Shown here piece after piece: positions 4,043-62,039 of a DNA stretch of 64,000 nucleotides. A program made the position numbers and the translations under genes. The DNA is from Sinohyriopsis cumingii (taxonomy: Eukaryota; Mollusca; Bivalvia; Unionida; Unionidae), in assembly GCA_028554795.2 (NCBI GenBank), contig CM068828.1:11800314-11864313 (forward strand), in the 5' to 3' direction. The notes under the pieces were generated by a model. That model ran no database searches, was not told where the DNA came from, and worked only from the letters and a program-made list of their open reading frames with translations. Each line of letters starts with the position of its first letter. The first letter of the stretch is position 1.

Positions 4043-5318
4043 GCCTGGTACACCGTAGAGTAAATACCCTGATGAAAAGCAAGTTCCTAGAAACAATTAC
4101 TGTGGGCCTGGTACACCGTGGAGTAAATACCCTGATGAAAAGCACGTTCCTAGAAACAATTAATGTGGGTCTGGTACACCGTGAAGTAAAAACCCTGAGG
4201 AATATCACGTTCCTTGCTGTGGGCCTGGTACACCGTGGAGTAAATGCATTGATAACAAGCACGTTCCTAGAAACAATTAATGTGGGTCTGGTACACCATG
4301 AAGTAAAACCCTGAGGAATATCACGTTCCTTACTGTGGGCCTGGTACACCGTGGAGTAAATACCCTGATGAAAAGCACGTTCCTTACTGTGGGCCTGGTA
4401 CACCGTGGAGTAAATACCCTGATAAAAAGCACGTTCCTAGAAACAATTACTGTGGGCCTGGTACACTGTGGAGTAAATACCCTGATGAAAAGCACGTTCC
4501 TTACCGTGGGCCTGGTACACCGTGGAGTAAATACCCTGATGAAAAGCACGTTCCCTACTGTGGGCCTGGTACACGGTGGAGTAAATACCCTGATAAAAAG
4601 CACGTTCCTAGAAACAATTACTGTGGGCCTGGTACACTGTTGAGTAAATACCCTGATTAAAAGCACGTTCCTTACTGTGGGCCTGGTACACCGTGGAGTA
4701 AATGCCCTGATGAAAAGCACTTTCCTAGAAACAATTACTGTGGACCTGGTACACCGTGGAGTAAATACCCTGATGAAAAGCACTTTCCGTACTGTGGGCC
4801 TGGTGCACCGTAGAGTAAATACCCTGATGAAAAGCACGTTCCTAGAAACAATTACTGTGGGCCTGGTACACAGTGGAGTAAATACACTGATGAAAAGCAC
4901 GTTCCTAGAAACAATTACTGTAGGCCTGGTAAACCCTGGAGTAAATACCCTGATGAAAAGTACATTCCTAGAAACAATCACAGTGGGCGTGGTACACCGT
5001 GGAGTAAATACCCTGATGAAAAGCACGTTCCTAACACAATTAATGTGGGCCTGAAGCTCCTACATCGTAGAGTAAATACACTGATGAAAAGCACGTTCCT
5101 AGAAACAATTAACGTGGGCCTGGTACACCGTGGAGTAAATACCCTAGTGAAAAGCACGTTCCTAGAAACAATTAATGTGGGACTGGTACACCGTGGAGTA
5201 AAATCTTGATGAAAAGCACGTTCCTAGAAACAATTATTGTGGGCCTGGTACACCGTGGAGTAAATACCCTAGTGAAAAGCACGTTCATGGAAACAATTAC
5301 TGTGGGTATGGTATACAG
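4043..5318. repeat. 63/54-bp minisatellite, about 21 units
   Basis: Tandem units start with GCCTGGTACACCGTGGAGTA. Most are 63 bp; several are 54 bp and lack the 9-bp block TAGAAACAA. Both lengths are multiples of three, which keeps long frames open on both strands (for example 4277-5026 minus), so these are not evidence of a protein. The first unit overlaps a small minus-strand reading frame of the surrounding virus-like fossil (3791-4096), suggesting the array was seeded there. Units at the right end (after about 5040) are more diverged. Confidence 0.97.
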
Positions 5319-12691: not shown

Positions 12692-13000
12692 CGCTCCGGT
12701 GGCCTGGTGGTTATAGCATCCGCCTCAGATGCGGGAGGTCGTGGGTTCGATCCCCGGCCGAGTCATACCAAAGACTTACAAAATTGGTACTAACAGCTGC
12801 CTCGCTTGGCGCTCAGCATTTAGAGGTTAGTGTTAGGACTGGTCGGCCTGGTGTCAGGATAATGTGACTGGCTGGGACATCATGCTACATGTCTGCGACA
12901 TGATGCCCCAGTGCTAGACATCACTATAATCTGCCACACTGCAGACATCGTAGTGATATGACTGAATTTTTATTAAAGCTACGTTAAAAATCCAAATCAC
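12692..13000 (+). mobile_element. SINE-2 (tRNA-derived), full-length, followed by (CA)n
   Basis: Head with A box TGGCCTGGTGGTTATAGCA and B box GGTTCGATCC, then GAGTCATACCAAAGACTTAC. The body carries a conserved hairpin (GGGACATCATGC ... ACATGATGCCCC) and ends ACGTTAAAAATCCAAATCAC followed by (CA)n. Flanks CTTTCTGTT on both sides look like a target-site duplication. Other copies are at 15130, 48528, 52783, 54803 and a tail at 38886. Confidence 0.92.
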
Positions 13001-13439
13001 ACACACACACACACACACTTTCTGTTCCATAGATTAAGAGTCGTAACAAATGACAGAGAAGGCCAATTTCTCAATCCTAACTTTGCTTCCTGCCACTGCC
13101 ATAATGTGCCCTATGATTAGTTCAGAACAGAGTTCTCTGTGGTGGCTACATACATTCATGGTTCATTCTTAATCAGACGCAAAAGGCAGAAGTTGGTCTA
13201 TTGATATAAATAGGCCGCGTGACCAAATCCCTTTACCTGAGCACTTGGACTGGCTATACAAATATGTTTAGGGTCATCACAAAAATTAACTACTGATTTC
13301 ATCAGTTAGAACTCATTTACATATGGTATTTTTGGTAAAGTGGCAACTGAAAATTCCCCGTTTTTACACCGACTTTTGATCAATATTTGCACAATTAAAG
13401 GGCTTTTCCAGGTGGGGAACAAATCCATACTGTTTTCGA
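13001..13439. other. No feature seen
   Basis: Unique-looking AT-rich sequence between SINE-2 and the degenerate satellite; no gene or repeat recognised. Confidence 0.4.
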
Positions 13440-15060: not shown

Positions 15061-15129
15061 ACTGAGACCTCAGACCCGACTGTAAAATAAGAAAAACAAA
15101 AAACAAAACATGATCATTATGAAACTCCT

Positions 15130-15421
15130 GATTTGGATTTTTAACGCAGTTTTAATAATGTTTCAGTCACATCGCTACGATTTCTGGAGTGTGGGCAGTT
15201 TATAGTGATGTCTAGCACTGGGGCATCATGCCGCAGACACGTAGCATAATGTCCCACCCTGCACATTATCCCGACACCAGGCCAACCAGTCCTAGCTGAG
15301 CGCTTAGCAAGACAGCTGTTAGTACCATTTTTATAAGTCTTTGGTAACACTCGGTCGTGGTTAGATACCGCGGCCTCACGCATCCGAGGTGGATGCTCTA
15401 ACCACTTGGTCAACAGAGTAG
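15130..15421 (-). mobile_element. SINE-2, minus-strand copy
   Basis: Reverse complement of SINE-2: TTGGATTTTTAACGCAG on the left, the hairpin GGGGCATCATGCC ... GCATAATGTCCCAC in the middle, and the tRNA head (CTAACCACTTGGTCAAC) on the right. Its head directly abuts the minisatellite at 15428. Confidence 0.93.
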
Positions 15422-15427
15422 TCGATA

Positions 15428-16135
15428 CAGCAACAATAAAGATTAACCTGTTCAACGTGAATTCAGTGTAGTTGCAAGAAATACCAAAGCCCCTTGGTAC
15501 CTTGGTATAGCGTTAATATCGATTTCAACAACCTCTTCAACGTTATAATAATTCAGTGTAGTGATAGGAAATACAAAAGGACCTTGGTACAGCATCAATA
15601 AAGATTTCAACATCATGTTCAATGAGAACTCAGTGTAGTGATAGGAAATACAAAAGGCCCTTGGTACAACATCAATAAAGATTTCAATGAGTACTCAGTT
15701 TAGTGATAGGAAATACAAAAGGCCCTTGGTACAACATCAATAAAAATTTGAAGTAGTGATAGGAAATACAAAAGGCCCTTGGTACAACATCAATAAAGAT
15801 TTGAAGTAGTGATAGGAAATACAAAAGGCCCTTGGTACAACATCAATAAAGATCTGAAGTAGTGATAGGAAATACAAAAGGCCCTTGGTACAACATCAAT
15901 AAAGATTTGAAGTAGTGATAGGAAATACAAAAGGCCCTTGGCACAACATCAATAAAGATTTGAAGTAGTGATAGGAAATACAAAAGGCCCTTGGCACAAC
16001 ATCAATAAAGATTTGAAGTAGTGATAGGAAATACAAAAGGCCCTTGGTACAACATCAATAAAGATTTGAAGTAGTGATAGGAAATACAAAAGGCCCTTGG
16101 CACAACATCAATAAAGATTTGAACATCCTGTTCAA
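15428..16135. repeat. Minisatellite with stepwise shortening unit (90 to 53 bp), about 11 units
   Basis: Units carry GTGATAGGAAATACAAAAGG and CTTGGTACAACATCAATAAA. Unit starts at 15471, 15561, 15639, 15703, 15756 and then every 53 bp to 16074 give intervals of 90, 78, 64 and then seven times 53. The part lost is the spacer AACATCATGTTCAATGAGAA; a remnant (GAACATCCTGTTCAAAAT) reappears after the last unit. Confidence 0.97.
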
Positions 16136-20846: not shown

Positions 20847-21041
20847 TCATGACAACGACTGCTGCTGAGCCTGTGTTTTCAATTGTGCTAATTTTGAAAT
20901 AGTCTCCTGTGAGGCAGCAGCCATCAGAATTTGATTTTCAAGTTCTAACTGATTGTTTCTTTCTGTAAGTTCTTTAATTTGCTCTTTTAGAACCTCCACT
21001 TCCTCCCGTACTGCATACATCAGGTGACTCTTCACCAGGTC
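20847..21041 (-). CDS. TSC22-domain protein, terminal coding exon (TSC box and leucine zipper)
   Basis: Last coding exon: acceptor TTTCCAG, then [20 protein letters not shown] (residues 81-100), and stop TGA at 20849-20847. This is the conserved core of the TSC22/GILZ family: the rest of the TSC box followed by a leucine zipper with heptad leucines at 98, 105, 112 and 119. The zipper ends with [11 protein letters not shown], matching the family pattern. The tail (120-144) is Ala/Gln-rich and ends QAQQQSLS. Family members dimerise through the zipper, lack a basic DNA-binding region, and act by binding other transcription and signalling factors in growth, stress and osmotic responses (known of the family; not shown here). 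Which TSC22D paralogue this corresponds to cannot be settled, since invertebrates often have one gene. The zipper reading frame is intact. Confidence 0.95.
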
Positions 21042-24000
21042 CTGGAAAGGAAGCAAGAAAAATCTTTGAAACATGTTTATTTTAAAATAACAACTGCATA
21101 TTACCATTGTTCTTTCACGCTTTTTTAAAAATATCTTTCTTGATGAATGAATGTTGTAATTGTAGGTTATTGTTATGATTCTGTAGTTACAAACTAAGCA
21201 ACAGAAAGGAAAACCAGCAAATTTTGTAAAACTTCATAAATTATTTAATTGTCAAATTTATAAATGAAAATGTGAAAGGAACTTGCAGTTTTGTGAAGTG
21301 AATCCAAAAATAATCCTGGATAAATTTCTATGAAAGTCCAAAAGAATAAAACGTTCTGTATAAATTTCAAAATCAGAAATGTACTGGTCTGCCAAGAATC
21401 CAGATTTTGCCAAAATGGTCACGTCCAGAATTCCTCTGAATAATTCTCTATAGTTCCAGAATATTATAGTCCAAATAATGAGCACTTTATTTCCACTGAA
21501 CAGTCCAAACAAATGTCTTTCCTCTCAAATAATATCTAAGTACAAAATAAAACGTGCAGATGTACAGCAGGAACACAAGAAATAAGAATGACTCCAAAAC
21601 AGGAATGAATATGATTACTCTGTGCTCTCCTTGTATACGTCTCGTACTATGACTGTATTTCACACCATACTCCATGTGACTGATCTCATTACTCCATAAA
21701 TCTTGAAACTGTCTATTCATGCAACCTAGCCCAACCAATGGGAAGTTACTGAATTCTTCAAGAACTGTCCAAACCCCATCAGCCAATGAAAAGAAGGCAT
21801 TAAGCTTTATTAAGATTATTATTAGTAACTGTCAACACATACATAAGCATCTATTTATAGATCCTATGTAATTTTAGGTTCTTAACAGATCCAAGTCATG
21901 TAGGCAAAATCCAACTAAACATAATCTGCACAACTTAATGCCAAGAATTTTTTTTTACAAAAATCTATTAAATACATGTACTAAAAGTACAAAAAATATA
22001 GATATACATAACATTATAATGTTTGTACTCTTGGCTGGTGTTAGCAAGACCAAATTACAATGGAGCAAGTTTTTTAGCCCAATGTACATTGGCCCAGACC
22101 ACAATACTGAACACCACAAACAGTAGAACTTACTTTATTATATAGCACTATTAGCAATATTAAAAACTGTTCTTAAATTGTTGTACCCAATACTAAAATT
22201 AATACAAATATTCCTGAAACAAAATCTTGCTTCAATTATTTTGTATCATTTAAAAGTGCTTAATACATGCTAAGACAATAAGACATCAAAAAATTTTTAA
22301 TGTTCGTTCTGTCAGGCAGGTGTTATTCTTGCTATATTTGTCATTACTATGTGCCCTGCCCTGTTTATATTGTCTATTATTTTTTGTCTGTTTTACATGT
22401 AAACTGTTGAACTGGACATTTTTCTACCCAAAGCTGGCTAGCAGAATAGAATGCCTTTCTTGTCAAAGAGGTGATCAATTTCACTGGTATACAAATGGTT
22501 TTACAGATTCTGATTTACCTGGGCACCATCCAAGAGGGTGTGGTTAATGATCTTAGACACCATCCAAGAGGGTGTGGTTAATGATCTTAGACACCACCCA
22601 AGAAGGTGTGGTTAATGATCTTAGGAACCATCCAAGAGGGTGTGGTTAATGATCTTAGACACCATCCAAGAGGGTGTGGTAAATGATCTTAGACACCATC
22701 CAAGAGGGTGTGGTTAATGATCTTAGAGATGTAAAGAAGACAAGATGAAGTCTTTTCCATTTGTTTCTAGAGGTGAATGGTTACTCAAGCATGAGGAATT
22801 AAATATTGAATGTCCAGGATAGATGGAACCCAAGTTTGCCTAAATCATCCCACTTTTTTGACCTGGTCGGAACCCCATGTTTCCTATTTTTTTTTATTTC
22901 TGGAATATATAGAGCTTACTCTGATTCTACTAAATTATCCACAATTGAGATTCTCAAAAGCAATATACCAGGTTAACACACTTGTACTTCAACAGAAAGG
23001 ACTGGTGACCAATGAATGACTCAAACCTACAATTGTCAAGGAGATCACTAACTTATCTCTTTCCAACAACCTGCCCATGCAGCCATCTATAAACAATGAC
23101 TAATATCAGAATATGTTTTGTATCTATTATACACAAGCCACTTTGTAGACCGGTAATCCTCTCATATCTACAGGGCTTATGACTCGTTACATTTGTACTC
23201 AATAATACTGCAGAACATTATCTTTCCTGGTGTAGATTTCCTCATATGCACGTGGTAACATTTTACAGCATCTCGGTGCAATTGTGACAATGTAGTGTGA
23301 ACTAAAGGGAAAGTTTTTTTTAAAAAATGTAAAAATGAAATGCACAAAAATTCTGGATGATAATCACTTCCAAATAAATGTAAACAGTAAGTACAACAAG
23401 ACAATAGATCAATCATAAAGCTGTTAAAATTCTGTAAATGAATATAATATAAAAGATGACAGTAACCCATACAAAATCTGGTTAACATTTGTTGTATCAA
23501 TGGCATTCCCTTTAACAGTCAATTTATCTTGGGTGATACAAAATTAGATAGCTTCTTCCTTCAGCTCACTGATTATGTGGCTTATTTGCTTGCAAGTACT
23601 CCTGTAAATTTTAACCTTTGGAAAAATGCCCCTGTCGAAAATGACCATTTTTTGAAAGAAAAAATCACTGCCATGGGGAAAAGTTGGATAACTGACAGGG
23701 TTCTCACGAAGATTTCACAAGACTTAATTGAGTCTAAAATGTGGTCCTTCACCATTTTCCTATAAACAATGCTTGTGCACTTCACAACTATTAGTTTCTG
23801 TGCTTGCTACGAATGTTTTTAATTACAACTATAATTGATAATGCTATCTGTAACCATGATAAAGATGGGAAAAAATTAGTCTTCAGTGTGCAAAAAGCAA
23901 CAGAAGAAACTAAATACATGTACTGTCACAAACATTATCAAAAGAAGAGACCAAGAAAGTACAAGAAATGCTGGGACAATGAACACAAATGGCCGATGTA

Positions 24001-34584: not shown

Positions 34585-34929
34585 CAAAGCAACTCCTCCC
34601 AATGATGTAAAGCAACTCTTCCCAATGACGTAAAGCAACTCCTCTTAATGACATAAAGCACCCCTCCCAATGATGTAAAGGAACCCCTCCCAATGACGTA
34701 AAGCAACTCCTCCCAATGACATAAAGCAACTCCTCCAAATGACGTAAAGCAACCCCTCCCAATGACAAACAGCAACTCCTCTCAATGACGTAAAGCAACT
34801 CCTCCAAATGACATAAAGCAATTCCTCCCAATGACGTAAAGCAACTCCTCCCAATGACATAAAGCAACTCCGACGTAAAGCAACTCCTCCCAACGACATA
34901 AAGCAACTCCTCCCAATGACATAAAGCAA
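34585..34929. repeat. 23-bp minisatellite, about 15 units
   Basis: Unit CAATGACGTAAAGCAACTCC followed by TCC. Because 23 is not a multiple of three, the same 23-residue pattern appears in all three minus-strand frames. Each unit carries TGACGTAA or TGACATAA, the first being CRE-like. Confidence 0.97.
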
Positions 34930-44214: not shown

Positions 44215-45785
44215 AAAGACGGGAACATGACCCCTTGTTTCAATGACCCAATTACAGCTGAAGAAATATTAAAAGTCATTAACAATATAAAAAAATAATT
44301 AAGCGAGTTCAATTGATAACAAACTGATATACAGAAAGCACAATTGCTGCAATGATAAATATGTATGAAAAGCATTTTAAGACAATCCTGAATAATGGCT
44401 ATGTACATGTATCAGGTAGTTGGACTATAGGTCTTATTGTGCCAGTCTATGAAAATGAAGGTGACAAAACCTATATGTCAAACTACTAACCTATTACTTC
44501 AGTTAGCTGCATTGGTAAAGTTTTTAATGCAATACTAAATAAAAGATTGATTAAATTCCTGGATGAAATAAATTATTATCCAAAAGTCATGCTGGATTCA
44601 GGAATGGCTATTCCACAACAGGCAATATTTTTCTTTTGTATACCCTTACTGAATTGACAATGCAAAAAGAAACATTTACTGCACGCTTGTTGATTTTCAT
44701 TGTGCCTTTGATACTGTTTGGTGAGTTGGAATATGACATAAACTGTACCCAGCAGGCATCAGGGGATAAGGTTTTAACGTTATATTAAGTATTTATAATA
44801 TCAAAACATATCTCCATTATTGCTCTCCTTATTCCTATGGCAGAGAAAAAATTTTTTATACTAGTAAATGGATGCACTGTAATCCTCCAAGCATACTGAT
44901 TTTGTAAATATGTTAAATGTTATGTTACTTGTATACATCGATGATACTAAACTTGTTGCAGATAATCCTGCTGACATGCAAAATATTCTTGAAATGTTTT
45001 CGTAGATACTGTGATAACTGGAAACAAAAAAATCAATACAGAGAAAACAAAAATTATCATATTTGGTTAACAAAAATAAAGAGAAAAAACATACTTAGAA
45101 ATAAAAGACAAGTCCTATATTGATGTTGTAGATGAATACGAATACTTAGGTCTTATATTTCAAAAGAAGGGAAAGTTCTCCAATGGCCTGAATAATCTAG
45201 TACCTATTCTGGCTAATAATTTAAGGCATGCATTTACTTAAAAAGCATACACACAATTTGGATTTGACTATTGACTGCAAGCTGTAACTTTTTGATCGAG
45301 CCATTATACCGATTTTAACAAATGCCTCTGAAATTGGGGATGAGATCTGATACAGTCAAAAAAACATGTCTTTCTTTCCTCAGAAAAATACTGATTGTCA
45401 AAAAATGTACCCCTCTATATATTATGCTATACAGCGCCCAACGTTATTTCCTTTTAACTGTAAACATTAAAAGTCACATGATCAACTACTGGGCCAGACT
45501 GGTTAGTGGTTATTTAAAACTATACCTTATCAAATGTATTCTCTCTTGTACACACATTGGTGATCATTCTTATGGCAAAAAATGGTTATTTGATGAAGTT
45601 GGGTTAAACTACATATGGAGAAATCAAAGTTTTGTGCAGCTAACATCAATTGGTCAACTTAAGTAAAGGTTATTTAAAACTATTTTGGATTTAGAAATTA
45701 TGTTTCTCATTACCCCAAAATATATCTATTTAATTAAGTTTAGAACTGCAAGTCATAGGTCTCCCGGCGAAACTTGTACATAGGC
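44215..45785 (+). pseudogene. Dead LINE (non-LTR retrotransposon), reverse transcriptase part of ORF2
   Basis: The remnants run in the right order for a Jockey/CR1-type ORF2: DPITAEEILKVINNI near 44240, GLIVPVYENEGDKTY near 44430 followed by an NYRP-like motif, IGKVFNAILNKRLIKFLDE near 44510, and YIDD (the catalytic FxDD box) at 44934-44945 followed by TKLVADNPADMQNILEMF. Then come NWK and EKTKIIIFG, EYEYLGLIFQKKGKFSNG near 45140 and a C-terminal open piece at 45322-45666. Frames shift several times and stops are frequent (for example TAG after EMFS at about 45003), so it is inactive. The endonuclease half is missing: 5'-truncated. The C-terminal motif FRTASHRSP... NAPYNEKYCTLCQ at about 45738-45832 leads into the minisatellite. 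Subfamily cannot be settled by eye. Confidence 0.88.
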
Positions 45786-46444
45786 TAATGCTCCCTATAA
45801 CGAAAAATACTGTACACTGTGTCAGTCTTGACAAACTTGTAGATAGGCTAATGTTCCCTATAATGAAAGATACTGCACACTGTGCCAGTCTCGAGAAACT
45901 TGTAGATAGGCAAATGTTCCCTATAATGAAAGATACTGCACAGTCTGTCTCGAGAAATGTGTAGATAGGCTAATGTTCCCTATAACGAAAGACATTGCAC
46001 ACTGTCAGTCTCGAGAAACGTGTAGATAGGCAAATGTTCCCTATAATGAAAGACACTGCACACTGTCAGTCTCAAGAAACGTGTAGATAGGCTAATGGTC
46101 CCTATAACGAAAGATGATGCACACTGTGTCAGTCTCGAGAAACGTGTAGATAGGCTAATGGTCCCTATAACGAAAGATACTGCACACTGTGTCAGTCTCG
46201 AGAAACGTGTAGATAGGCTAATGTTCCCTATAACGAAAGATACTGTACATTGTGTCGGTCTCGAGAAACTTGTAGATAGGCTAATGTTTCCTATAACGAA
46301 AGATACTGCACACTGTATCAGTCTCGAGAAACGGGGATGAATATACTGCACACTATCAGTCTCGAAAAACGTGTAGATAGGCTAATGTTCCCTATAATGA
46401 AAGATACTGAAAAACTGTGTCAGTCTTGAGAAACGTGTAGATAG
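45771..46444. repeat. 63/61-bp minisatellite, left segment, about 11 units, derived from LINE ORF2
   Basis: Unit GTAGATAGGCTAATGTTCCC, TATAACGAAAGATACTGCAC, ACTGTGTCAGTCTCGAGAAAC. In the LINE's frame each unit reads NVPYNERYCTLCQSRETCR, the same as the LINE's own C-terminus at the left edge of the array. Some units lack two bases (61 bp). Open frames across it (46095-46340 plus, 45980-46351 minus) follow from the 63-bp period. Confidence 0.95.
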
Positions 46445-47549
46445 CAGGGCTGAGCAAATCCCATAGCCCGACGTCTCGGACTAGTCATTTTTGAAGTCGG
46501 GCAAGTAAAATTTTCCAAGTCACTAGTCCGGGACAAGTGCTTTTTAAAAAAGTTGGGCTAGTCCTTATTTTCGTGCTTTAATCACTATATCTACTTTTAT
46601 CTGGCCAATCATGCCCTCCGGGCGTACTGAATACTTGATTCTACTCCTCTTCATGTATACATTTACATCCTGTTACCGCCTGACTGCATATTGGGCTAAG
46701 CGACCAAATTATCGGCAAATCAAAACACGTCAAACAAAAGAAAGCCAGTATGATCAATTAGCAGTGTTGTAAGTGGTTTTGTTGCAATGAGTTTACTCAA
46801 TCTTGATCATAACCAGCGGCTCACTATGATTTTAATCCAGCGAGTCAGTGTAATTAAATTAATGAAAGGTACTTTACCGACATCAGTGTTGGTTTCCTTT
46901 ATGAACTGATTAATTGACAGTAATGATTCTTTAATTTATAATTGACTATACAGATGATTAACTTCCATGTGCGATATTGTGTTTGAAGCGAAACAATTAC
47001 GCTAATTAATGAGCTGTTTCAGTTCGTATTTAAAAGAGAAAATTGATCTTATGATAGTTACTCTGCGGATAAAATGAGTTTGCTAAATTATTTTCGCAAA
47101 GAAGGTAATAACGGCGATTTGGAGAAGGTAATTTGTTTGAAAATGGAGGGATAAAACGTAAAATGGATACTGAGTGTGCTTGTTATCCCTGTCTTGAATA
47201 TGACTCGGAAGGTGGCAGACATATACATGGACATATTTTCAAATCCATGAGCTAAAACATATACACATGAACCTGAAGAAGCCAAATGTATAACAACCAA
47301 TGTTTTTAAAAATTAAATTCTTTTAAGAAATAATTATGTTGTATATTATTTTGTTTGTTTTCTTCTATGGATTAAGTACATACGTCTCATCAAATCTCGG
47401 CAAGTGATTACCATTTTGGGACCAGTGAAAAGTAAGGTGGGACTAGTGAAGAGTAAGGTGGGACTAGGGAAGAGAAAGGTCGGACTAGTGAATTTTCTGA
47501 AACCACTTGTCCTGGATTAGGGGTTAAAAAAAAAAATTGCTCAGCCCTG
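46445..47549 (+). mobile_element. Non-autonomous DNA transposon, 1105 bp, inserted in the minisatellite
   Basis: Terminal inverted repeat CAGGGCTGAGCAA on the left, TTGCTCAGCCCTG on the right. Flanks AGATAG (46439-46444) and AGACAG (47550-47555) are a 6-bp duplication with one mismatch. Subterminal repeats of GGACTAGT (right) and CTAGTCCG (left) resemble transposase-binding clusters. An ATG at 47074 opens MSLLNYFRKEG and stops after 26 codons (47154), with a possible donor GAAG/GTAATA. This looks like the start of a transposase whose remainder is deleted. CAG-termini recall hAT, but a 6-bp rather than 8-bp duplication leaves the superfamily open. Confidence 0.85.
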
Positions 47550-47931
47550 AGACAGGCTAATGTTCCCTATAACAAAAGATACTGCACACTGTCAGTCTCG
47601 AGAAACATGTAGATAGGCTAATGGTCCCTATAACGAAAGATACTGTACACTGTGTCAGTCTCGAGAAACGTGTTGATAGGCTAATGGTCCCTATAACGAA
47701 AGATACTGCACACTGTGTCAGTCTCAAGAAACGTGTAGATAGGCTAATGGTCCCTATAACGAAAGACACTGCACACAGTATCCAGTCTCAAGAAATGTGT
47801 AGATAGGCTAATGTTCCCTATAACGAAAGATACTGCACACTGTGCCAGTCTAGAGAAACTTGTAGATAGGCAAATGTTTCCTATAACGAAAGATACTGCA
47901 CACTGTATCAGTCTCGAGAAACGGGGATGAA
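47550..47931. repeat. 63/61-bp minisatellite, right segment, about 6 units
   Basis: Continuation of the array interrupted at 46444. It ends CTCGAGAAACGGGGATGAATA at about 47931. The same ending occurs inside the left segment at about 46324-46344, so the terminal unit was duplicated before or after the transposon arrived. Confidence 0.95.
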
Positions 47932-48527
47932 TATCATCTTATTTTCATGATGCAAGACAAAAAATTTTACCTCAGTTTTACACTATCAGGACTAACATTT
48001 ATAAACATAATTATTGAACACAGGTAACGTACAACTCTTAACAAATATTTGCAGGTGTTTAGATTGTTTTAAGAATCTTGTAAACAAAACAACCTGAGTG
48101 TAATTAAGTTTTGTCTTGTCCTGTCATGTCTGTTAGGCCCTGGGTTAAATATGTTCTTTGCTTAGCTGGCCTATTTTCATAGCAAATTATTTAAAAAAAT
48201 CTCTTCATGGTCCAATGTCCCTGCTGTCAACACAACCAGTTCATGAGAGTTACGCAGGTACTAAGTGATAATAGGTCAACTGTCAATAATATTGTAACAC
48301 AAGATGGCATGATCCTACTTTAAGGAACAGTAGGTCATATTATTTTTAAAAAATTGCAAGTCAAGAATTCTTAAAAATATGAATGTAATGTAAGACTCCA
48401 GATGCATCAAAATTCCACAGCAGTGTATAAGTTACCAGTGATCATTAGAAATTCTGTTCATTTATTTACATTCATCATGTTTCCTGTTTAAGGAACTGAA
48501 AACTTTCCTGGCCTAGGAGGGGAAGTG
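47932..48527. other. No feature seen
   Basis: AT-rich unique-looking sequence up to the SINE-2 target site. Confidence 0.4.
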
Positions 48528-48844
48528 ATGTGATGTGATTTGGATTTTTAACGTAGCTTTAACAATTTTTCAGTCATATCGCTACGATGTCTGCAATGTG
48601 GCAGCTTATAGTGATGTCTAGCACCGGGGCATCATGCCGCAGACATGTAGCATGACGTCCCACCCAGTCACATTATCCTGACACCAGGCCAACCAGTCCT
48701 AACACTAACCTCTTAATGCTGAGCGCCAAGCGAGGCAGCTGTTAGTACCAATTTTGTAAGTCTTTGGTATGACTCGGCCGGGAATCGAACCCACAACCTC
48801 CCGCATCCGAGGTGGACGCTCTAACCACTAGACCACCGGAGTGG
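48528..48844 (-). mobile_element. SINE-2, full-length, with 14-bp target-site duplication
   Basis: Perfect duplication TAGGAGGGGAAGTG at 48514-48527 and 48845-48858. On the minus strand it reads from CCACTCCGGTGGTCTAGTGG (A box region) through GGGTTCGATTCCCGG (B box) and the hairpin to ACGTTAAAAATCCAAATCAC. Best-preserved copy and so the youngest of the family here. Confidence 0.97.
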
Positions 48845-49283
48845 TAGGAGGGGAAGTGGAGATATCTGGGATGTTGTTGTTTTTGTTGTTTTTTGTTCTT
48901 GTTTGGTAAGGGTTTTTTTTTTTGGGGGGGGGTAAATTTCTGGCTTCCAAAGAGGTTTAAAAGAAATTTGTCAAACACATCACTACTCCACAGGAGTGAA
49001 TAAAAATCCATTACTTTAAAATAAATCTTCAGAAGAAAAATATCCCCCTGCCCGCAAAAGAAATTAAATGGCTAGTTCCTAAGATGCACTCACACAATTA
49101 TGTTAATTATTGCAGGTTTATCTCACAGGGAGCTAAATATTTAGTGATGCAGTGCATTTAATTTATCATCTGAAATGGCCTGGATATTTGTCTCTTGGAG
49201 AGGTACAGTAAAGCCCTACCTATAAGACCACTAGCATGACTTCAGCACAGTGGTCTTATTAGCAGTGTGGTCCCAATATAAGG

Positions 49284-49983
49284 GTGTAATGATCACAAGT
49301 TATATGGACAAAACATGGTGTAATGATCACAACAGTTATATGGACAAAACATGGTGTAATGACCACAACAGTTATATGGACAAAACATGGTATAATGACT
49401 ACAACAGTTGTATGGACAAAACATGTAATGACCACAACAGTTATATGGACAAAACATAATGTAATAACCACAACAGTTATATGGACAAAACATGGTGTAA
49501 TGATCACAACAGTTATATGGACAAAACATGGTGTAATGACCACAACAGGTATATGGACAAAACATAGTGTAATGACCACAACAGTTATATGGACAAAAAA
49601 CATGGTGTAATGATCACAACAGTTATATGGATAAAAACATGATGTAATGACCACAACAGTTATATGGACAAAACATGGTGTAATGATCACAACAGTTATA
49701 TGGACAAAACATGGTGTAATGACCACAACAGTTGTATGGACAAAACATGATGTAATGACCACAACAGTTATATGGACAAAACATGGTGTAATGATCACAA
49801 CAGTTATATGGATAAAAACATGGTGTAATGACCACAACAGTTATATGGATAAAAACATGGTGTAATGACCACAACAGTTATATGGACAAAACATGGTGTA
49901 ATGATCACAACAGTTATATGGACAAAACATGGTGTAAATGACCACAACAGTTGTATGGACAAAACATGATGTAATGATCACAG
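49284..49983. repeat. 36-bp minisatellite, about 19 units
   Basis: Unit TGTAATGACCACAACAGTTA followed by TATGGACAAAACATGG. The 36-bp period keeps frames open on both strands (49259-49837 minus gives 192 codons of YNCCGHYTMFCP); this is not a protein gene. Confidence 0.97.
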
Positions 49984-50761
49984 CAGGCACATAAGCCATA
50001 ACAATGCTTATGCATTCAAGATTTAGCTTATTCCAGTTATAACTGGGTTGTGACTAAAATGTAGATAAGGGAACAAGTAATAAAATTTCTGTTAATTATT
50101 GTATGCCATGTTTTACATGAAGGGTGACTACTCCACCTTACTGAAAATGACTAATGACATTTCCTACACTGCCCTGTCTTGCTTTCACAAGCTCAAAATA
50201 ACCTAATTTGTTTTATTTTGGGAGCTTTACTATAATATTTACTGTCCTACTGAAAATGTACCTTTATAAATCTTGCCAAATCTTATTAATAACCCCAATA
50301 TGACTAATGTTTTATATTTTATTATTAATTTCATTTTATTAATTCATAAATGATGAATTCCTACATCAGATGTTAACTGATTCACAAATACACTTATATT
50401 CCTGCAAATTTAATTGGTCTCAACATTACTTACATCCGCTAATAGATGCTTTCAATACAGTAATGAGGATTCTACAAGACAAAATATGGCAATAAAACCT
50501 GTTATTTGCCTGCTGATACCTTGCAGAAAGTACTAATAGAACTCCAAAAGTTTATATAATTCACAAAATTCTTTCAAAGGAGACTCCCAAAAGCAGTAAC
50601 AAAAATTAAAATTTGAGTCCTCCTCATCATATCAATAACAGAGTTTTGTATATGCTTCTTTAAGAATGAGTGTAAAATGTACTTGTCAAGTATATATTTG
50701 TTCATGTACAATAATTAATCAGCCTAGTATATTTAGTAAATGAAAGTCAGGTTAATAGTAC

Positions 50762-52034
50762 AGTATTATTTTGTGTTGCCAGAAGAACCCATTGTCAAAC
50801 AGCATGTAAGTATTATTATTTTGTGTTGCCTGAAGAACCCATTGTCAAACAGTGTGTAAATATTATTATTTTGTGTTGCCTGAAGAACCCATTGTCAAAC
50901 GGTGTGTTATTATTATTTTGTGTTGCCAGAAGAACCCATTGTCAAATAGTGTGCAAGTATTATTATTCTGTGTTGCCTGAAGAACCCATTGTCAAATAGT
51001 ATGTAAGTATTATTATTTTGTGTTGCCAGAAGAACTTATTGTCAAACAGCGTGTAAGTATTATTATTTTGTGTTGCCTGAAGAACCCATTGTCAAATAGC
51101 ATGTATTATTTTGTGTTGCCTGAAGAACCCATTGTCAAATAGCATGTAAATATTATTATTTTGTGTTGCCTGAAGAACCCATTGTCAAATAGCGTGCAAG
51201 TATTATTATTTTGTGTTGCCTGAAGAACCCATTGTCAGATAGTATGTAAGTATTATTATTTTGTGTTGCCTGAAGAACCCATTGTCAAATAGCGTGTAAG
51301 TATTATTATTTTGTGTTGCCTGAAGAACCCATTGTCAGATAGTATGTAAATATTATTATTTTGTGTTGCCTGAAGAACCCATTGTCAAATAGCGTGTTAA
51401 GTATTATTCTGTGTTGCCTGAAGAACCCATTGTCAAATAGCATGTAAGTATTATTATTTTGTGTTGCCTGAAGAACCCATTGTCAAACAGTGTGTAAATA
51501 TTATTATTTTGTGTTGCCTGAGAACCCATTGTCAAATGGCGTGTAAGTATTATTATTTTGTGTTGCCAGAAGAACCCATTGTCAAACAGCATGTATTATT
51601 ATTTTGTGTTGCCTGATGAACCCATTGTCAAATAGTGTGTAAGTATTATTATTTTGTGTTGCCTGAAGAACCCATTGTCAAATAGTATGTAAGCATTATT
51701 ATTTTGTGTTGCCAGAAGAACCTATTGTCAGACAGCGTGTAAGTATTATTATTTTGTGTTGCCTGAAGAACCCATTGTCAAATAGCATGTAAGTATTATT
51801 TTGTGTTGCCTGAAGAACCCATTGTCAAATAGTATGTAAATATTATTATTTTGTGTTGCCTGAAGAACCCATTGTCAAATAGCGTGTATTATTATTTTGT
51901 GTTGCCTGAAGAACCCATTGTCAAATAGCATGTAAATATTATTATTTTGTGTTGCCTGAAGAACCCATTGTCGAATAGCGTGTAAGTATTATTATTTTGT
52001 GTTGCCTGAAGAACCCATTCTCAAACAGCATGTA
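50762..52034. repeat. 50-bp minisatellite, about 25 units
   Basis: Unit TTTTGTGTTGCCTGAAGAAC, CCATTGTCAAATAGCGTG, TAAGTATTATTA. Most units hold GTAAGTAT or GTAAATAT. Length differences are mainly in the ATT-rich linker. Confidence 0.98.
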
Positions 52035-52464
52035 AGGATAATTCTTTCTTTCATTTATGATGAAAATTATTGCAAATGAATGAATATTAAATACCCTGTA
52101 TCAAGAACAGTTTGATCAAATTTTCATTATATCCATATTAATCCTAAATAGGTAGAGGTATCCATGGAAATGGACTTCCAATGAACACAAGTAAGCATGT
52201 GTGAAAGACAACACCAAAACTTCAAAAGGGTCACAGGTTTTAGACTAAATTCAGCCAAACTAATCTCTGTTATTGTGCACTGTCAGTGTTCAACAAAGGT
52301 AATTTGTGATTCTGATCATAGTTGTTATCATTTCTGACAGTATCTTTATTATCAAAATAATATTAATGCCTTAATTGGAGGTTTTATTATCAAATATTAT
52401 TTTGAATCATATCTAATGTAATAACTGATTTTATAATGTATAGTGCAAGAAAAATAACATTCCA

Positions 52465-52782: not shown

Positions 52783-52922
52783 GACACCAGCCCTAACACT
52801 CACCTCTTAATGCTGAGCACCAAGTGAGGCAGCTGTTAGTACCATTTTTGTAAGTCTTTGATCGAACCCACGACCTCCCGCATCCAAGGCGGACCCTTTA
52901 ACCACTAGGCCACCGGAGCAGT
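52783..52922 (-). mobile_element. SINE-2, head half only
   Basis: GACACCAGCCCTAACACTC to ACCACTAGGCCACCGGAGC. The body with the hairpin is missing and the broken edge adjoins a (GT)n run at 52757-52782. Confidence 0.9.
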
Positions 52923-54789: not shown

Positions 54790-54802
54790 AGATATAGGAG
54801 GA

Positions 54803-55002
54803 TGTGTTGTGATGTGATTTCAATTTTTAATGTAGCTTTAAAAAAATGTCAGTTATATCGCTATGATGTCTGCAATGTGGCAGCTTATAGTGATGTCTAG
54901 CACTGGGGCATCATGCCGCAGACATGTAGCATGATGTCCCACCCAGTCACATTATCCTGACACCACACCGACCAGTCCTAACACTTAAACCTCTTAATGC
55001 TG
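54803..55002 (-). mobile_element. SINE-2, 5'-truncated, with 13-bp target-site duplication
   Basis: Perfect duplication AGATATAGGAGGA at 54790-54802 and 55003-55015. Only the body and tail were inserted; the tRNA head is absent, which fits incomplete reverse transcription. An (AAT)n run follows. Confidence 0.96.
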
Positions 55003-55686
55003 AGATATAGGAGGAATAATAATAATAATAATAATTTGTTGTTATCATTTGATCTTTGTATGATTAGTTGTAAATCTTCGGAAGAGAATTACAAGAAGAA
55101 AGTACATTTTAATAATAAAAAATGTCCAATTTGAATAGAGTAAAACAAACTAACCCTCTCTTATTCAATCTTAAATGCCCCACACCCCTCAGACAAAATG
55201 GTGATTTCAACTAATAAGTTAGAGCACAAGCAATTTCATTTAATTCCCATTATGTTTCAGAAATTGCAAAAAAATGTAAGGGCCTGGGCTCGTAAAAAGA
55301 CTAAGTTCACGAATCCTTTTTAAACCACTACAAGTTCACATATACTTTTTTACCATGCACTTCTAAAAAAATTTATTAAAGAATAATATGTTGACCTTAA
55401 TTTGGGCGGGGTTGTGGTAGTTGTGTTTTCAGTGGGGGTGTATATTATCTCCAGCATATCTACACATGTCACTGTATTTTCAGTTAACATTAATTGAATT
55501 TAGAAGAAAAGAATTACTAATGTTAATAATTATGTAGGAGTCAAATTTTAAAATCGTTTTAAGAACAATAAAACAATAAAATTAGAAAAATTATAACGAG
55601 TCTAAAATGACTCCTAAAATAATAGTCTGTCTGACACTGCAGCTACACTCTAATTTTAAGTATGAGGTACTCTGGTTTACATTCTT

Positions 55687-59320: not shown

Positions 59321-60672
59321 TACAAGTTGAGCCAAATATGCAGTGTAGTTTTTGATGTGTATGTTGAGCCAAATATGCAGTGTGGTCTTTGATGTGTATC
59401 TTGAGCTGAATATGCAGTGGTCTTAATGTGTATGTTGAGCCAAATATGCAATGTAGTCTTTGATATGCATGTTGAGCCAAATATGCAGTGGTCTTGATTT
59501 GTACGTTGAGCTGAATATGCAGTGTAGTCTTAATGTGTATGTTGAGCCAAATATGCAGTGCAGTCTTTGATGTGCATGTTGAGCCAAATATGCAGTGTAG
59601 TCTTGATTTGTATGTTGAGCCAAATATGCAGCATGGTCTTTGATGTGTATGTTGAGCCAAATATGCAGTTTGGTCTTTTAATGTGTACGTTGAGCCAAAT
59701 ATGCAGCATGATCTTTGATGTGTATGTTGAGCCAAATATGCAGCATGGTCTTTGATGTGTATGTTGAGCCAAATATGCAGCATGGTCTTTGATGTGTATG
59801 TTGAGCCAAATATGCAGCATGGTCTTTTAATGTGTATGTTGAGCCAAATATGCAGTTTGGTCTTTTAATGTGTATGTTGAGCCAAATATGCAGTTTGGTC
59901 TTTTAATGTGTATGTTGAGCCAAATATGCAGTGTGGTCTTTGATGTGTAAGTTGAGCCAAATATGCAGCATGGTCTTTGATGTGTATGTTAAGCCAAATA
60001 TGCAGTTTGGTCTTTTAATGTTTATGTTGAGCCAAATATGCAGTGTGGTCTTTGATGTGTATATTGAGCTGAATATGCAGGGTGGTCTTGGATGTTTATG
60101 TTGAGCCAAATATGCAGTGTAGTTTTCGATGTGTAAGTTGAGCCAAATAGGCAGTGTGGTCTTGATGTGTATGTTGAGCCAAATATGCAGTGTGGTCTTG
60201 GCTTTGTATGTTGAGCCAAACAGACAGTGTGACCCTCAATGACATATGCTGAGCCAAATATGAAGTGTGGTCTTTGATGTGTATGTTGAGCCAAACAAAC
60301 AGCATGACCCTCAATGACACATGTTGAGTCAAATATCTAGTGGTCTCCTGATGTGTATGCTCAGTCAAACAGCGTGACCCTTGATGTGCATGTTCAGACA
60401 AACATACTGTGTCCCTTGACAATATGCATATTCAGCCAAATATACAGTGGAACCCTCAATATGTATATTGAACTGAATATAGTGAAGCTTGACTTGTATG
60501 TTGAGCCAAATATACAGTGTGATCCTTGACAATGTGTATGCTGAGCCAAATAATGAGTGCAACCCTTGACTGCACATGTTGAGTTAAATATTTAATGTGA
60601 CCCATGATGTGTCCCTCAACGTGTATGCGGAACCAAAGATACAGCATGACCCTTGATGTGTATGATGAACCA
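59321..60672. repeat. 37-39-bp minisatellite, about 35 units, decaying to the right
   Basis: Unit GTGTATGTTGAGCCAAATAT, GCAGTGTGGTCTTTGAT. The centre (59640-60060) is uniform; from about 60200 the units become irregular (GACCCTTGAC variants). Open frames such as 59283-59783 minus reflect the repeat. Confidence 0.96.
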
Positions 60673-61747
60673 CACAACCAAAATATACTGTATGCTGGTC
60701 CTCAATAACCACTACCAACAGTGATGCAATCATATGATTTAATGCGCCCAACGATTAGGGTCTTAAGTGCTGTTGGTCTTACAATAGTTATATAAATAAA
60801 TAAACATACTGCAAATATCCTGGAGCTCTTTACTTGGACAATCATGATTCTGGTTATGCTAATTACCTCATGTATCCACATCTCCATGTATGTGTGCTTT
60901 ATTGAACATAACAGTGAAACCTAGTTGGGTTACCATCTCAATATGTATGAAGCCATAAATATATAGCCATAACCATAGATACTTTGCCCATGATGTCAGA
61001 GACTTTTATTACTAGTTCCCTTTAAATCACTGTGAGCCATCTTCTGCGTCATCTTCCTTAGTGAATGTAATGGAACCATTATCTCCAGTAAATCTTGAGT
61101 TATTTCAAGGCCTCCGTGTGTATTGAAGAAAGAAGAAAAAAAGAATAATTTTGTAAATAACCTATATTATTTGCAGATTAAATCATTTATTTATAGTTAT
61201 ATCAGATAATGCTGGCATGCAACAAATTTTGTTCCTTTAAATGACATCAAAGAATCAGGCTGACACAAATGATGGCAAACACACCTTTCATAAAGGAGGT
61301 AAACCTGAATGAAGTGAAATGGGTTTATAAAGAAAAGGATAAAAATGTCATCTCAATTCAAAATTGTATCATGTTTCCCCACAAAAAAATGAGTTTCGTA
61401 AAAGACCATCTTCTTTCGGTCTCTTGGGTCACCTTTGGGGCCAACCATTAATTTCTGAGGGTGGAGTACTTTCAAACAACATTTTTTTTCTTTTGCCCCT
61501 CAAGATATTTAAAACCAATAATAAGGATATAATTTGCTGTTTTTAGGAATTGGTGGAGTTGACAAACTGTGCAAAAATATTTATTTTCTACAACATTTCA
61601 GCTTCCCACCCCTTGCCCACCCCTACATAGTTGGTCATTTTTTCAGGTGAATATGCATCAAATTTTTCCTAATTTTCTCTATACACTACATAAACCATCA
61701 TAAACCTACACAGTCAACTTAACCTACAAGTAGGGTTAAACTGGATT
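60673..61747. other. No gene seen
   Basis: AT-rich; two short overlapping open stretches near 61269-61546 are unrecognised. Confidence 0.35.
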
Positions 61748-62039
61748 AAGCCATGCCTTTCTCCATATGGCTTGTATTGTTGGGTCAGTGACCATTTTCA
61801 AGTAGTAAGCCATGCCTTTCTCCATATGGCTTGTATTGTTGGGTCAGTGACCATTTTCAAGTAGTAAGCCATGCCTTTCTCCATATGGCTTGTATTGTTG
61901 GGTCAGAGACCATTTTCAGGTAGTAAGCCATGCCTTTCTCCATATGGCTTGTACTGTTGGGTCAGAGACCATTTTCAGGTAGTAAGCCATGCCTTTCTCC
62001 ATATGGCTTGTATTGTTGGGTCAGAGACCATTTTCAAGT
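61748..62039. repeat. 59-bp minisatellite, five units
   Basis: Unit AAGCCATGCCTTTCTCCATA, TGGCTTGTATTGTTGGGTCA, GTGACCATTTTCAAGTAGT; starts at 61748 and every 59 bp. The first two units share GTCAGTG, the last three GTCAGAG. Confidence 0.98.

Follow-up and report, generated by a model that had tools for sequence, protein, structure and literature searches.

Does a minisatellite whose unit is a piece of a transposable element (TE) travel with that element, or did it grow where it is found? The question is raised by a 63-bp tandem array in a decayed long interspersed nuclear element (LINE) of the bivalve Sinohyriopsis cumingii, within a 64,000-nucleotide stretch of contig CM068828.1 (positions 11,800,314 to 11,864,313, forward strand), which we call the window and whose own positions are used below. 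A preliminary description of the window had left the choice open. We conclude that the array is very probably a minisatellite private to this locus, which would have arisen where it lies when 63 bp (21 codons) were duplicated in tandem in open reading frame 2 (ORF2) of a LINE copy that was already dead.

The 63-bp array and its place in the LINE

Tandem Repeats Finder (TRF) reports two stretches of period 63 in the window, 45769-46333 (score 857) and 47550-47923 (score 585). Splitting them at a common word yielded 16 anchored units and one partial unit, close to the count of about 17 given in the preliminary description. Both parts lie on the plus strand: units 1-10 and the partial unit (46345-46375) occupy 45779-46439, as delimited by TRF, the unit split and alignment, and units 11-16 occupy 47551-47927, as delimited by TRF and unit alignment. 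Pairwise identity among the 16 units averages 88%, and a core 20-mer, with up to three mismatches allowed, matches the window 16 times, always inside the array, against a mean of 0 over 100 shuffles. Ten units are 63 bp long (a length also assigned to the two units that finish at an edge of the array), three are 61, one is 59 and two are 64 bp, and the statement that most length variants differ by two bases is true for three of the six. The units had also been described as lying in the same frame, which holds within each unit and is lost along the array, where the 59-, 61- and 64-bp units shift it. Two-base losses are common to units 4, 5 and 11 and fit non-coding growth.

The interval 45738-47931 had been described as array throughout. 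Half of it is a separate element of 1,105 bp (46445-47549), overlooked in that description, which we identify as a non-autonomous terminal inverted repeat (TIR) transposon by its perfect 13-bp inverted ends, CAGGGCTGAGCAA and TTGCTCAGCCCTG. It is bordered by a target-site duplication, AGATAG on the left (46439-46444) and AGACAG on the right (47550-47555). Its family has 19 near-full-length genomic copies elsewhere among the best 40 of 1,476 candidates, with 90-92% identity and ends at, or at most 10 bases from, the bounds of the insert; partial copies also occur among the genome matches to the whole interval. Because the transposon and its target duplication lie inside a unit, the array predates its entry; the insert occurs elsewhere without the array. 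Target duplications of 5-6 bp were seen in six of seven excised copies of the insert (L002-L006 and L008), L007 being without a clear one. The target-site duplication of hAT transposons is 8 bp long, and we rejected a hAT identity since the duplications found here differ from that length.

The host LINE was traced on both sides of the array. To the left, 44328-45768 (plus strand) holds the left part of the dead ORF2 with its putative reverse transcriptase and C-terminal region, interrupted by many stops and frameshifts, as recognized from frame readings, a sub-threshold match to the Pfam family RVT_1 and DNA matches beside the unit in related copies. To the right, 47923-48134 (plus strand) holds the resumption of ORF2 (GDEYHLIFMMQDK..., then its frameshifted C-terminal end) and the LINE 3' part, as recognized from the frames and from the same flank following the unit in relatives, whose matches to the right LINE query stop by its base 214. 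The frame upstream of the array reads ...FRTASHRSPGETCT-stop-ANAPYNEKYCTLCQS, and downstream of it GDEYHLIFMMQDK is followed, with frameshifts, by more C-terminal sequence. In the relative L017 both array-flanking ends surround a single unit, FRTANYRFPVETGR-stop-ANVPYNERYCTLCQSQEIRDEYHY, and in L041 an open frame runs across CILCQSQEIEDEHHYRLPC, so that the C-terminal Cys-His motif (CxxC...HxxxxC) is read directly. We take this motif and its flanking words to be typical of CR1/L2/Jockey-like LINEs.

The unit consists of 21 codons of ORF2 and ends just past the CxxC half of the motif. Because both ends of the array border a single unit in relatives, the array lies within ORF2, where it separates the CxxC half from the H...C half. 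A position at the 3' end of the LINE, where the preliminary description had placed the array as part of the C-terminus, was rejected: the coding sequence goes on from 47923, and the matching flank of the relatives adjoins the single unit.

Protein and structure searches added little to this assignment. Pfam placed RVT_1 at 44922-45001 in one of five window pieces, below its cut-off (E 0.079), and in three of seven pieces of relatives, picked with the help of reverse-transcriptase-like words, also sub-threshold (L064, E 0.0013; L021, E 0.0034; L066, E 0.058). These matches fall at the start of the domain and in its catalytic part; the remaining window pieces and four longer frames of relatives had no RVT_1 match. 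A search of solved structures found none and a later one returned only an unrelated receptor (E 0.79), while viral contigs and the genome_contigs search yielded no relatives.

The unit in other copies of the LINE family

The relatives are 64 excised copies; the window's own loci were set aside, and 8 near-duplicates of 72 were dropped. They were drawn from the best-scoring candidates, namely the best 40 of 107 for a query made of the array and the best 40 of 188 for a further search. The unit is matched once in 50 of the 64, twice or more in 6 and not at all in 8, with L077 counted among the 50 despite two visible copies of a 28-bp repeat. Both LINE flanks are matched in 45 of the 50, the left being absent in 3 and the right in 2, and the distance from one unit edge to the other, measured in 46 of these copies, is 63 in 22 and 62 in 9. 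The single match in 50 copies, lying in 45 of them between both flanks, shows that the unit is ORF2 sequence belonging to the LINE family itself, as had been proposed.

With the array query (best 40 of 107 candidates), matches outside the window span 54-119 bases, bar one of 372 on C4, which belongs to L011, the sole other array of ~60-bp units. The short matches are mostly single units, from which, among the excised loci, L024 and four carriers of a 28-bp array depart. A query made of the L011 array, for which all 29 of 29 candidates were scored, gave long matches at the window and L011 alone, and neither query found another 63-bp array. Most likely, then, the LINE family holds the unit once and the 63-bp array is local, as judged from the scored candidates, which answers the question of origin in favour of this locus. 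The preliminary description had named two findings that would speak against its view, the same array at many loci with no LINE beside it and a LINE consensus whose C-terminus does not match the unit; neither was seen.

The units also carry a trace of when they multiplied. Fifteen of the 16 units have TAG in place of TGG at one codon; the remaining unit adjoins the insert, and there a base of the target duplication differs. Given the TAG in all units but that one, the simplest reading is that expansion would have started from a copy already holding the stop, i.e. after the death of the frame. In the 50 single-unit relatives the same codon is TGG in 28 and TAG in 11.

Growth of the array

Twelve bases of LINE sequence from beyond the unit, at the right edge of the array (47923-47934), recur in identical form at 46333-46344 (plus strand), inside the array. 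The preceding units 4-9 together with this edge (45963-46344, plus strand) align with 47550-47934 at 92.5% identity over 385 columns, and this register is the best one (558 bits against 486 for the next). Because the right edge recurs inside the array and the blocks agree best in this register, about six units and the right edge must have been duplicated in tandem as a single block.

In the sequence of events that we propose, the LINE would have inserted and then decayed (TAG for TGG, and frameshifts). A 63-bp piece between short matching words would then have been duplicated by slippage or unequal exchange, the common word being GAAAC, found at both edges of the founder unit (45769 and 47918). 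The array would have enlarged, with about six units and 12 bases of the right LINE flank doubled in one piece, and the TIR transposon would later have entered a unit and cut the array in two. The block duplication and the later entry of the transposon are shown by the sequence, whereas slippage or unequal exchange as the agent and the short words as the seed are our inference. We consider the enlargement to be neutral repeat growth and propose no function for it.

A direct repeat built into the LINE, which might have served as a seed, proved a weak candidate. Across the 46 relatives measured, all of them with a single unit, agreement between the two edges averages 6.3 of 18 bases, compared with 5.1 for background pairs; 39% of the latter attain the median match and 8% attain the median run, and the edges were located by motif, which itself biases the test towards edge similarity. 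The edge words of relatives are thus hardly above background.

Several points weigh against our account. Its seeding step by microhomology is weakly supported. The stop occurs in other copies too, with TAG in 11 of the 50 relatives, and may therefore predate the insertion of the window LINE. The array query covered the best 40 of 107 candidates, and some copy with a poor score may hold another 63-bp array. Every RVT_1 match lies below the curated cut-off, and scans of this type gave E 0.025-0.049 for unrelated families as well, so that only the matches of L064 and L021 stand out; the LINE label depends partly on motifs regarded as typical of such elements.

Other arrays in the same ORF2 stretch

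Different arrays occupy the same stretch of ORF2 in other copies. L011 carries a 60-bp array (x 6.2, 96%), which from our own reading of the sequences is joined at a different point, AGATG and not GAAAC. The array of L024 is 52 bp x 2.0 and that of L088 is 26 bp x 4.1, and L079 carries 74 bp x 3.1 slightly downstream. A 28-bp array with the same junction is found in seven copies: L016 (x 5.1), L065 (x 7.1), L066 (x 3.1), L070 (x 2.0), L086 and L087 (x 3.1 each), and L077 (two copies by eye). A query with the 28-bp array, for which the best 40 of 115 candidates were considered, led to three of its new places being excised. Nine of the 11 array-bearing relatives were first found with array-holding queries (six with the window array and three with the 28-bp array), L077 and L079 having come from another search; the frequency of arrays among the relatives is therefore inflated and no rate.

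We placed the window and 51 relatives having both flanks (52 rows) in a tree, in which branch supports are low. A single clade for the ten array-bearing copies was rejected by the approximately unbiased test (p-AU 0.009), and the free tree takes nine changes. For the 28-bp array six of the seven carriers could be tested, L070 being left out as it is without a right flank. A single clade of these six was not rejected (p-AU 0.31), the free tree takes five changes, and the four 28-bp copies on C13 give a higher likelihood when held together than in the free tree. In L065, L066 and L087 the similarity ends ~235-265 bases past the anchor, near the TTGTC-rich 3' end of the LINE, and the sequence past that end has no match among the three.

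One explanation of these arrays is recurrent birth, in which ~100 bp of ORF2 would duplicate in tandem with unusual ease and the 63-, 60-, 52-, 28- and 26-bp arrays would have arisen separately. Five periods fall within the one stretch, the nine changes on the free tree agree with such a history, and the flanks of the window and L011 share 66.3% identity, under the median of 69.4% for all pairs, so that the two are no closer than average copies. On the other side stand the inflated frequency of carriers, the edge words, and the array density of the LINE itself. Across the 64 loci we counted 26 arrays in 61.7 kb inside the LINE span and 58 in 139.5 kb outside, 0.42 per kb each, and arrays cover fewer of the bases inside (7.0% against 10.4%); the idea that LINE copies are richer in arrays than their surroundings was rejected on these figures. 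A special proneness of the stretch is quite possible on this evidence, and we lean slightly against it.

A combined history can be put forward more tentatively, as one that we think rather doubtful as a whole. The Cys-His stretch would be a repeated birthplace of minisatellites, giving rise to the 63-, 60-, 52- and 26-bp arrays separately, while one LINE sublineage would have spread the 28-bp array to several chromosomes by retrotransposition, its repeat number (2 to 7) shifting after landing. The data on the 28-bp array fit a lineage that acquired the repeat first and then inserted at separate places, common descent being neither rejected nor shown; a repeated origin with the same junction is also possible.

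The preliminary description had further raised the idea of a mobile minisatellite, an array carried by the LINE family as part of the element and inherited by the window copy. For the 28-bp array of the sister copies this may be so, given the junction shared by seven copies, the single clade that the test does not reject, the gain in likelihood for the four C13 copies and the unrelated sequence beyond the LINE in L065, L066 and L087. The 28-bp repeat is nonetheless a different unit and itself takes five changes on the free tree, and the common clade of all ten carriers is rejected. For the 63-bp array, which among the scored candidates is found at the window locus only, in a family that mostly holds a single unit match, the idea fails, and we consider it very improbable. 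That an unrelated minisatellite was inserted into the LINE, or replaced part of it, has a negligible chance of being right; nothing was found in its favour, and the single-unit relatives refute it, since 50 of 64 copies match the unit once at this place, 45 of them with both flanks, as sequence native to the family.

Duplication in place at the window locus thus stands as our account of the 63-bp array, and it is an ordinary outcome amid a minisatellite-rich neighbourhood. In the window, 12 arrays with a TRF score of at least 200 cover 6,944 bp (10.9%), 45769-46333 and 47550-47923 being counted separately. Such growth is widespread in the sequence covered, where the LINE is just one of many substrates. 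What is less ordinary is the recurrence, other copies having arrays with other periods in these ~100 bp. The LINE family offers a system of dozens of replicates of one ~100-bp substrate, many of them single-copy and others expanded with various periods, and because these versions share one substrate, the first steps of minisatellite birth (junctions, word lengths and order) are countable within one genome.

Further arrays were noticed in the excised copies. Just downstream of its 28-bp array in the Cys-His stretch, L086 holds a second, unrelated 28-bp array (874-1183, x 11). Short arrays with periods of 22-47 form another cluster, at one place near the end of ORF2, in L039, L047, L052, L056, L062 and L078; it lies at ~1738-1969 in each and maps to window ~48067-48085 for all of these except L078, and L022 has ~90 bp x 6 nearby. 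L019, also of this LINE family, has a 36-bp array (x 5.8) at 227-435, within its reverse-transcriptase part. L059, L060 and L061 are near-identical LINE-bearing stretches ~235 kb apart on C57 (about 0.79, 1.03 and 1.27 Mb), reflecting either a large tandem duplication or an assembly artefact.

Comparison with known minisatellites

The preliminary description knew of no described case of this origin. TE-derived minisatellites are nonetheless well described (PMC3389668, PMC9659126, PMC6947457). In human, according to Ahmed and Liang 2012 (PMC3389668), 7,276 of 31,472 minisatellites (23%) are TE-derived, 5,747 of 5,932 clusters are at one locus only, an AluJo-derived array has 17 copies of 52 bp, and known mechanisms account for the start of only 6% of the TE-derived arrays. 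Judged by its sequence, the window array belongs to the same class, with a unit that shares homology with a TE at the corresponding position and an array that appears to have grown in place and to be private to its locus. It differs in its source, the human cases deriving mainly from Alu, ERV or L1 (PMC3389668) and ours from ORF2 of a presumably CR1/L2/Jockey-like LINE, and in that several array periods occur here in one stretch of one family.

Satellites with partial LINE ORF2 sequence have also been described, HinfI/CR1 in chicken and PROsat/L1 in Phodopus (hamster), as reviewed in PMC9659126. The window unit likewise includes partial ORF2 sequence; unlike these satellite DNA families, it forms one short array in one dead copy. 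In the model of Haber and Louis, as outlined in PMC6947457 and PMC3389668, minisatellites are born between direct repeats of 5-10 bp. The founder unit has a 5-bp word, GAAAC, at either edge, which would fit this model; the word match in relatives is not clearly above background. The internal repeats of LTR12, which move with the element according to PMC3389668, are a possible parallel for the 28-bp array and not for the 63-bp array. One literature text search with a 22-base piece of the unit, in a limited collection, did not find the unit in print, and a search on LINEs and tandem arrays found nothing.

Other features of the window

Other minisatellites called by TRF in the window lie at 4043-5313, 15499-16123, 34586-34929, 49283-49987, 50764-52047, 59326-60306 and 61747-62039. 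A dispersed repeat at 48529-48841 has copies at 12694-13005, 15129-15422, 54795-55004 and 52786-52918 that are 81-93% identical. ARAGORN reports tRNA-like ends in it, a tRNA-Pro at 48770-48843 (minus strand) and a tRNA-Leu at 12693-12765 (plus strand), and the repeat looks like a tRNA-derived short interspersed nuclear element (SINE) family. An open reading frame at 20847-21233 (minus strand) has a leucine-zipper-like end, which we take to resemble a TSC22-type domain, suggesting an animal gene.

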